Positions 23,262 to 25,404 of a stretch of 39,193 nucleotides of DNA are shown one piece after another (the stretch's first letter is position 1; every line of letters starts with the position of its first letter). The DNA is from Nitratidesulfovibrio liaohensis (lineage in GTDB: Bacteria > Desulfobacterota > Desulfovibrionia > Desulfovibrionales > Desulfovibrionaceae): the NCBI RefSeq assembly GCF_011682075.1, contig NZ_VSMK01000656.1, positions 1 through 39,193 on the forward strand, written 5' to 3'. The notes beneath the pieces were generated by a model. It was given only the letters and a program-made list of their open reading frames with translations. It was not told the DNA's origin and made no database searches. Both the position numbers and the translations under genes were made by a program.

Positions 23262-23614
23262 TGGTGGAGGCGGCGGGAATCGAACCCGCGTCCGAGAACA
23301 TTCCACGCGAAACGTCTACAGGCTTATGTCGGGAACAATTGTCGTCACGGGCTTGGCCCCCGACCGGGCGGCCCTAGACCAGCTCACCTGTAGTTCTTAC
23401 ATCCGCAGCGGCGAGCGCCCTTGGATGCCAGCCCGATGAAGTTACACCTCGCCGACGTATCAGGCGTCGATCGGTTTGGCGTGGCCACTAATTAGGCAGC
23501 CAGTGCGTATTCGTAATTGTTGGCAATTACTTTTGGTGCCGCTTTTTACGAGGCCAGCGGCGCCTCGGCCTGCAGTTCCGGCTTCCACATCCCCGTCGAA
23601 ACCAGGGCGCCCCC
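23262..23614 (-). ncRNA. ssrA: transfer-messenger RNA (tmRNA)
   Basis: A 353-nt one-piece tmRNA that rescues stalled ribosomes by adding a degradation tag. The 5' GGGGGCG pairs with CGCCTCC of the 3' end, CCA is encoded at 23262-23264, and the T arm GGGTTCGATTCCC is visible. The open reading frame near 23490-23522 encodes ANNYEYALAA and then TAA. The 5' region has the conserved CUGGUUUCGACGGGG. The tag ends in LAA as expected for ClpXP recognition. The gene has its own promoter and terminator. Confidence 0.97.
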
Positions 23615-24043: not shown

Positions 24044-24667
24044 CTAGGTGTTTCTGCCGAAGTAGAAGTGCGACATGGCCCCCTTCAGGCTGACCCGATA
24101 GGCGGAAGATGCCGTCTCTGCGGTATCGGCCGTTGCCGCGTCCACCGCGTCGTAGGCGGCAGCGCCAACGCGCGTGGTAACCACCCGGCGCAGGCTGCGG
24201 ATGTCGCGGATGAGTTCCGACTGCGAGGCAAGCTCTCCGAAGGCCGAGGATAGTTCCGGCGCATCGGCCAGGGTCTGTTCTATGCGCGCCTTGTCCGGAT
24301 GGTCGCCCAGCACGGAAAGCGCCCCATCATCATTCATGGACAGAGTCAGCTTTTCGTCCAGCGACACCCCGGCGGCGTCCAGCCGGTCGGAAAGGGTGTC
24401 CAGAAACCCCTCTTGCAGGTCCGCGACGTTCTGTTCCAGCGTTTCCAACACGTTGCCGCCACGCTCGGAAATATCTTCCAGCGTGGAGCGCAGTTTGGGA
24501 TTCAACGCGGAAAGGCTGGCGCTGTCGGTCAGGCGGGCAAGGTTGCCATCCGCCGTCTGCGCCTGCTCGGACCCGGACGCGGAGCGTCCTGCATCGGCGT
24601 CCTGCCCCGTGGTACGGTGGACGACCATCATGCTACCGAGATTGTTGAAAATGCCGTCTATGGCCAC
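24044..24667 (-). CDS. unknown 207-aa protein under a sigma-54 promoter
   Basis: The GTG at 24667 has GGAGG 5 nt upstream and lies about 40 nt after the predicted sigma-54 start site. The frame is open further upstream to 24883, but that part precedes the promoter. The product begins VAIDGIFNNLGSMMVVHR, has a Gln/Ser/Asp-rich stretch (about 20-45), then long helical segments with leucine periodicity (STLEDISERGGNVLETLEQN, then QEGFLDTLSDRLDAAG). A later block is ELIRDIRSLRRVV and the end is SLKGAMSHFYFGRNT. No signal peptide or membrane segment was found. I do not recognise the family. Sigma-54 control suggests a conditional function such as motility, surface or nitrogen/carbon response. Confidence 0.75.
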   Translation of the reverse strand: MAIDGIFNNLGSMMVVHRTTGQDADAGRSASGSEQAQTADGNLARLTDSASLSALNPKLRSTLEDISERGGNVLETLEQNVADLQEGFLDTLSDRLDAAGVSLDEKLTLSMNDDGALSVLGDHPDKARIEQTLADAPELSSAFGELASQSELIRDIRSLRRVVTTRVGAAAYDAVDAATADTAETASSAYRVSLKGAMSHFYFGRNT

Positions 24668-24719
24668 GCCCGCCTCCGTCGTGCAGAAATTTCCCTTCCC
24701 GTGTCTGGGGCAGGAATGA

Positions 24720-24734
24720 GCAAGATCGGTGCCA
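24720..24734 (-). promoter_or_regulatory. sigma-54 (RpoN) promoter
   Basis: On the minus strand TGGCACCGATCTTGC: -24 TGGCAC, N5, -12 TTGC followed by T, with the required 10 nt between GG and GC. It matches the YTGGCAC-N5-TTGCW consensus throughout. Transcription would start near 24708. Confidence 0.8.
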
Positions 24735-24978
24735 GCCAAAAGAGGCAGGCAGACGGCATCGTTGCTACGGACAGGGCGGGCCGCAAATCTGTGTGCAGTC
24801 ACGCGGGTGGCCTGCCGCTTCCGGATTCGCCAGACTCGGCCAGATTTGTCCAGATATGACCAAATGCGCCCGGGCTCGCCCAACCGCCATCAGTCGCGTT
24901 GACAGTCGTGGGGGTTTTGCCGGAATCTGAGAGAAAGTCCGGAGTCCCGCCGCATACGGGGCACGGCAGGAGAACGCC
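24735..24978. other. divergent intergenic region
   Basis: It lies upstream of both the sigma-54 promoter (minus strand) and the exported-protein gene (+ strand), so activator sites for the former would be expected here. A TTGACA at 24899-24904 without a good -10 could serve the + strand gene. Short direct repeats of the type CCAGAT occur around 24840-24858. Confidence 0.4.
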
Positions 24979-25404
24979 ATGCGAAACAACGCGTTGACGA
25001 TGAACGACATGTCGGATGGTCGGGCCGGGTCTTTCTGCGGGGATTGCCGCGCAGGCCGCCTCATGCCCGACAGGCGTGGACGAAGCATAGTGCGCCGCCA
25101 CATTGCGGCGGTACTGACATGCCTGGCCCTGGGGAGCGTGCTTTCGGGGATGGTGCCTGCATCCGCGCGGGCAGAGGCCACGCTGCTGCCGGGGGGTGAA
25201 TACCCAGATGCGCAATGCACCTCGCCCATGCGTCCCTTTGCGGGGGACAAAGCCTGGGAATGGGACCTGTACCGCCAGAAGATGGGCGCCTACCGGGCTT
25301 GCGTGGACGCTTACGTGCGCCGTGCCCGGGCGGACATCGAGCACATCCAGGGCAAGATCGACAAGGCCGTGCGCGAGTACAACCGCGAGGTGACCATGCC
25401 CTGA
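24979..25404 (+). CDS. small exported protein, unknown function
   Basis: A 141-aa protein starting at ATG 24979 with AGGAG 6 nt upstream. A long charged N-region is followed by a hydrophobic core (AAVLTCLALGSVLSGMV) and a signal-peptidase site near ASARA. The mature part is about 75 aa: EATLLPGGEYPDAQC, WEWDLYRQKMGAYRACVDAYVRRA, then a helical charged tail. Two mature cysteines could form a disulfide. An alternative start at 25063 gives a more normal signal peptide but lacks a ribosome site. The family is not recognised. Confidence 0.7.
   Translation: MRNNALTMNDMSDGRAGSFCGDCRAGRLMPDRRGRSIVRRHIAAVLTCLALGSVLSGMVPASARAEATLLPGGEYPDAQCTSPMRPFAGDKAWEWDLYRQKMGAYRACVDAYVRRARADIEHIQGKIDKAVREYNREVTMP

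Follow-up and report, generated by a model that had tools for sequence, protein, structure and literature searches.

The region 24044-24734 on the minus strand of the window, by which we mean the whole 39,193-nt stretch of Nitratidesulfovibrio liaohensis DNA analyzed here, is likely to be a single-gene unit that belongs to the flagellar sigma-54 regulon, in which a FlbD-type activator would act on a dyad in the leader and whose product would be a lineage-specific flagellar accessory protein. The preliminary description of this DNA had suggested that the gene may belong to an undescribed RpoN-controlled response. The leader dyad, the promoter geometry and the co-occurrence of the gene family with fliD, the flagellar cap gene, indicate instead the known flagellar sigma-54 regulon, and the 207-aa protein encoded here is probably an unrecognised flagellar accessory part rather than part of a new stress response. 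The type of regulon is thus already known; the 207-aa gene is a new member of it, from a superfamily for which we found no Pfam or NCBIfam model. An orphan gene thereby becomes a testable flagellar candidate.

Conservation of the predicted sigma-54 promoter

The gene of the 207-aa protein (24044-24667, minus strand, stop codon included), delimited by its open reading frame and by orthologue alignments, starts with GTG (24665-24667), and a Shine-Dalgarno sequence GGAGG can be read at 24673-24677 on the same strand. Upstream lies the sigma-54 (-24/-12) promoter core TGGCACCGATCTTGC (24720-24734, minus strand), which agrees with the consensus at 10/10 positions, its TGGCAY-N5-TTGC elements being exactly spaced with 10 nt from GG to GC. 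The preliminary description had thus been correct about the consensus match and its spacing, the start codon with its GGAGG and the length of the product. The distance of about 40 nt that it gave between promoter and GTG is right when counted from the predicted transcription start (24708, minus strand), a position that follows from promoter geometry only, and wrong when counted from the GC of the -12 element, which lies 52 nt from the GTG.

Such a match had also been called rare by chance, which is overstated. An expected 0.27 exact matches occur per shuffled window, at least one being present in 22 of 100 shuffles, and 15 exact matches are present in the 4.24-Mb assembly, where the reversed pattern, used as a control, occurs 7 times. 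Taken alone, an exact match is therefore weak evidence for a promoter, and these counts are what speaks for a coincidental match with some other promoter driving the gene. We consider this very improbable, as the core is invariant amid diverged upstream DNA and the promoter recurs before orthologues in other genera: the site is convincing because it is conserved, not because the match is rare.

In a protein search of 59 genomes, one of which is that of the window, 19 proved to have the gene or a homologue of it, G001, from the same genus, having a distant homologue only. At the ten strongest matches (L009-L018, the window's locus among them), the gene is preceded by an exact TGGCACN5TTGC; the identity of these orthologues goes down to 42%, and the exact promoter recurs before orthologues that are 42-54% identical. 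In the alignment of the seven loci from the window's genus, the core is identical in 7/7 (15/15 columns invariant). Invariant columns amount to 15/21 in the spacer, 18/20 in the dyad region and 14/14 from the Shine-Dalgarno sequence to the start, against 10/120 upstream of the promoter. A search for the same promoter and protein in relatives, as had been proposed, hence supports the promoter. Of the region 24735-24978, which had been put forward for activator sites, the promoter-proximal 120 nt are not conserved in the genus.

Of 18 further homologue loci, eight (six in the window's genus) combine a one-mismatch sigma-54 site with a dyad at offset 39; the remaining ten are without this architecture. 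It is also absent at the homologues L022, L265, L266 and L270, and in the last three, which are distant homologues, the sigma-54 promoter is not conserved. Loss of the promoter elements from orthologous loci had been named beforehand as the outcome that would speak against RpoN control. Since the closer orthologues retain these elements, which a few distant homologues lack, this test favours RpoN control. RpoN itself (PF04552) is encoded in all five genomes searched, namely the window's own and four relatives.

An operator-like dyad in the leader, shared with fliD

The aligned sequences place a conserved operator-like element inside the predicted transcript and not upstream of the promoter. 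This dyad, GGGAAATTTCTGCAC (24681-24695, minus strand), was first spotted by eye in the leaders; it is found at about +13 to +27, at an offset of 39 from the T of TGGCAC, and is a putative FlbD-type activator site. Its half-sites are GGAA and TGCA with a 5-nt spacer (GGAA-N5-TGCA), and most leaders show the form GG[A/C]A-N5-T[G/T]C[C/A].

The same type of dyad is present behind the sigma-54 site of fliD, at an offset of 38-41 in 15 of 19 leaders, and the 207-aa gene thus shares its promoter architecture with a known flagellar gene. A script detected a sigma-54-like site at 25 of 50 fliD loci and none at the other 25, which is an undercount by at least one, as L167, scored without a site, has one with a single mismatch. 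A dyad matrix was trained on 19 of the 25 leaders, the family of the 207-aa gene being kept out of training; those of G004, its second copy, G005, G006 and G007 (window's genus) and of G043, which is close to G051, were dropped. The matrix has a correlation of 0.83 with its own reverse complement and is therefore near-palindromic, as expected of a dimeric DNA-binding protein. It gives the window dyad a score of 13.97. Scores of at least 13.96 are found at 3 of 78,356 window positions, the 24681-24695 site included, and of 100-base stretches taken at random from the window, 0.41% reach the score of the dyad anywhere in the scanned range.

With the same fliD-trained matrix, the best dyad falls at offset 38-41 in 22 of the 24 family leaders with a sigma-54-like site, seven of these leaders coming from one genus and L045-L047 being near one another. 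Their scores range from 7.1 to 16.9, and 4/24 lie below 10, which is no better than the best unrelated leader of G007 (at another offset). Outside the 24 stand L020, L022, L265, L266, L270, L267, L269 and L271, one leader that could not be parsed (L115) and several repeats (L116 of L044, L042 of L017, L043 of L019, and L039-L041 of loci already counted). L020 has a sigma-54 site with three mismatches and a dyad at offset 40, and L267 has CGGCATTTTTTTTGC and a dyad at offset 38; at the g42 loci L269 and L271, a dyad-like string coincides with the ribosome site and the ATG.

At the one fliD match of the window's own genome (L178), the script found no sigma-54-like site, and same-genus genomes were therefore used for the comparison. 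In the window's genus (L166, L168, L170, L250), fliD likewise has a sigma-54 core and a short leader, and its dyad, GGGAAATTTCT..., is like that of the 207-aa gene, at offset 41 (L166, L250). The two differ in their second half-site, which is TTCC for fliD and TGCA for the 207-aa gene, and in that the fliD product is a known structural protein while the other is not. The single-contig genome G007, of the same genus, contains 30 TGGCAYN5TTGC sites (29 read afresh, the 30th being L012, the orthologue of the 207-aa gene). A dyad at offset 38-41 follows two of them, those of fliD (score 17.1) and of this 207-aa gene (13.97), and the next-best leader dyad scores 9.8 at offset 30. The flagellin sigma-54 leaders L224, L256 and L258 are without the dyad; these flagellin genes have sigma-54 cores and very short leaders.

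A pattern search for core plus dyad in the 59 genomes returned 26 places, against 2 for the reversed control. Ten belong to the 207-aa family, 2 to fliD (G020 and G028, in agreement with the PF02465 matches), 2 to a TPR protein and 12 to another gene or none. This two-element signature, a sigma-54 core with a leader dyad at offset 38-41, can help to find further genes. Upstream of a conserved TPR-like protein (LDYEINKELGECYLFMG...), too, several genera show a sigma-54-like site (L240, L255, L123, L136).

The candidate activator

The leader dyad resembles the operator of FlbD, or DVU1063 in Desulfovibrio vulgaris, an activator of flagellar sigma-54 promoters. We infer that a FlbD-type protein would be its binder and that it would activate rather than repress. 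Part of the comparison is with Caulobacter, which belongs to a different phylum from the window organism.

In the available portions of the papers cited here, DVU1063 is described as a FlbD homologue with the motif GGCAxxxxTGCC (PMC3333781), whose regulon in D. vulgaris Hildenborough likewise has sigma-54 promoters, some with downstream activator sites, and whose targets are flagellar genes and hypothetical proteins (PMC3333781, PMC4641369). Downstream activator sites, at 40-70 bp from the promoter, are few in D. vulgaris and mostly belong to DVU1063, and six of the 23 sigma-54 operons without a predicted activator site are co-expressed with flagellar genes (PMC4641369). The 207-aa family is not named among the DVU1063 targets in these portions, where bare gene numbers could hide it (PMC3333781, PMC4641369). 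It is likewise undescribed in titles and abstract openings, supplements excluded, on the D. vulgaris sigma-54 regulome, on DVU1063 and its targets, on FlrC/FlbD and on Desulfovibrio motility. The half-sites of the window dyad, GGAA/TGCA with a 5-nt spacer, differ from the motif printed for D. vulgaris, GGCA/TGCC with a 4-nt spacer. On the other hand, the 5-nt spacing of the window family is that of Caulobacter FlbD, whose ftr sites carry the dyad GGCA-N5-TGCC at sigma-54 flagellar genes and, in the text available, serve both activation and repression (PMC3930126, PMC3333781).

The printed motif GGCAN4TGCC, with at most one mismatch, has 64 matches in the window for 48.5 expected. A match at 24755-24766 was rejected as an activator site, being present in 0/6 other loci of the genus. 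Another, inside the gene (24536-24547), is exact in 4/6 (L010-L013), has one mismatch in L015, is absent from L014 and was not kept.

One would also wonder whether the gene could depend on sigma-54 while the dyad is the site of another regulator, a repressor site or an RNA element, the flagellar link then being indirect, a matter of lifestyle and not of the machine. The deviation of the half-sites from the DVU1063 consensus would fit this, as would, according to the same partial texts, the repression that Caulobacter FlbD also exerts at some promoters (PMC3930126) and the 37 sigma-54 activators of D. vulgaris (PMC4641369). The same geometry at fliD and the exact GGCA-N5-TGCC dyad at two homologue loci, L038 and L022, argue against it, and we regard it as unlikely. 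As for a CsrA-type RNA site, in which GGA is fixed, the half-sites vary between GGAA, GGCA and AGCA among the fliD leaders, which speaks against such a site. At L022 (G032), the exact dyad adjoins the -24 element and is not in the leader, which could mean the opposite regulation.

Under the preferred reading of a FlbD-type activator, RpoN-RNA polymerase would bind the TGGCAC/TTGC elements and then wait until the activator, the DVU1063 orthologue, opens the complex from the leader dyad at about +13 to +27, and expression of the 207-aa gene would come on jointly with that of fliD, the gene of the filament cap. A fixed downstream site at both fliD and the 207-aa family would offer a clean case of an enhancer-binding protein acting inside the transcribed region.

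Co-occurrence with flagella

The distribution of the family was determined in 297 genomes of the order with the profile A1 (E of 0.001 or below, which takes in distant homologues). The profile matches 143/297 genomes and fliD (PF02465) is present in 243/297; both occur in 141 genomes, the family alone in 2, fliD alone in 102 and neither in 52 (Fisher p = 6e-15, genomes being treated as independent of phylogeny). Thus 141/143 family genomes have fliD, and 2/54 fliD-less genomes have the family, namely G003, which has five flagellin matches, and G277, an 82% complete assembly. The family is missing from 102/243 fliD genomes. In the genus g42, it is found in 39/47 fliD genomes versus 0/11 listed fliD-less ones. 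As a soft control for genome reduction we used lactate permease (266/297), which is kept in 19/20 listed fliD-less genomes, the family being present in 1/20. Both comparisons use 20 listed of the 54 fliD-less genomes, and the lactate permease count of 19/20 was made by eye.

Beyond the order, three genomes of the phylum match a wider profile (17/395 overall). In one of them, G466, a perfect TGGCACTGGTCTTGC again precedes the ATG by 45 nt, and no dyad was seen there by eye.

The 207-aa protein and its possible role

In agreement with the preliminary description, which assigned the protein to no known family, the window protein has no match above cut-off in Pfam, NCBIfam or PHROGs, and ten homologues have none above curated cut-off in Pfam or NCBIfam. 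In alignments, the orthologue core shares G[DEN]HP, and a C-terminal SLKGxMSHFYF is almost invariant; in the window protein it reads SLKGAMSHFYF (residues 193-203, codons 24059-24091, minus strand) and is strongly conserved and modelled in a beta hairpin. AlphaFold2 predicts residues 1-38 to be disordered and the rest to consist of helices and two hairpins, with a pLDDT of 69.5 for the full model and of 83.6 for residues 70-207 alone; the core is confidently modelled as alpha/beta and mostly helical. No signal peptide was seen by eye.

Foldseek gave no confident fold match (best E 0.29 and 0.27). With VIA-align, the best match of the core was 8gup_A (Z 7.1, rmsd 3.4, 96 aligned; in a second run Z 6.3, rmsd 3.4, 95 aligned). 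This weak likeness to the EsaG/DUF600 fold (8gup_A, 2ia1_B; 12-14% identity) has a Z below the level that the tool considers meaningful and near that of unrelated matches, with no Foldseek support among the matches listed. In a sequence search of solved structures, a match to C-type lectin domain family 4 member M (3jqh, E 9.5e-6, 46 profile positions) was judged spurious, and the one other match had an E of 0.31.

The N-termini of paralogues encoded in the same genomes are rich in Ser. Three g42 proteins of about 410 residues (L262, L263, L264) contain the alpha/beta unit of the 207-aa family repeated several times in tandem.

Given the predicted disordered N-terminus, the repeats and the fliD-type control, our first guess is an exported flagellar accessory protein and our second a chaperone or regulator. 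The product would then have, after a disordered stretch of some 40 residues, an alpha/beta core and a C-terminal hairpin that hardly varies, and would perhaps leave the cell through the flagellar apparatus. For the second guess, the gene would still belong to the flagellar sigma-54 regulon, its product being a cytoplasmic chaperone, export helper or regulator like FliT, FliS or FlgM. The fliD-type promoter, the lack of a visible signal peptide and the small, mostly helical modelled core with a hairpin suited to partner binding would agree with this. However, neither Pfam nor NCBIfam returned a match, and the Ser-rich N-termini of the relatives and the tandem copies of g42 are less chaperone-like, which makes this second possibility rather unlikely in our view. 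Extending the preferred exported-accessory reading to all relatives, we tentatively propose, as a possible if doubtful generalisation, that Desulfovibrionaceae and related bacteria have a new superfamily of exported filament or cap accessory proteins, with paralogues and tandem-repeat versions, many of them switched on with fliD through sigma-54 and an activator bound at a constant place within the transcribed leader. Should the protein indeed belong to the flagellum, then this organelle would, in a major family of sulphate reducers, have components that homology-based annotation has missed.

Genomic neighbourhood

Among the neighbours identified in 20 regions, where only some neighbours were scanned, no flagellar gene was seen. 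Those of the strict family include tmRNA and tRNA-Met, as well as proteins that, from their sequences, we take to be LptF/G-like and UppP-like; those of the paralogues include PhoH, 7TM-HD and YbeY. In the window, ssrA (tmRNA, 23262-23614, minus strand) is directly downstream of the 207-aa gene on the same strand. Read-through into ssrA need not be invoked, because a sigma-70-like site (23714-23687) precedes the tmRNA. The tmRNA was not found in the compared regions of G026, G009, G023 and G032, and the order 207-aa gene-ssrA recurs in four genera (the window's genus and those of G028, G018 and G015). On the other side, the 207-aa gene is adjoined by the divergent gene of a 141-aa protein (24979-25404, plus strand), which has no Pfam or NCBIfam match above cut-off and of which traces are seen upstream in same-genus loci.
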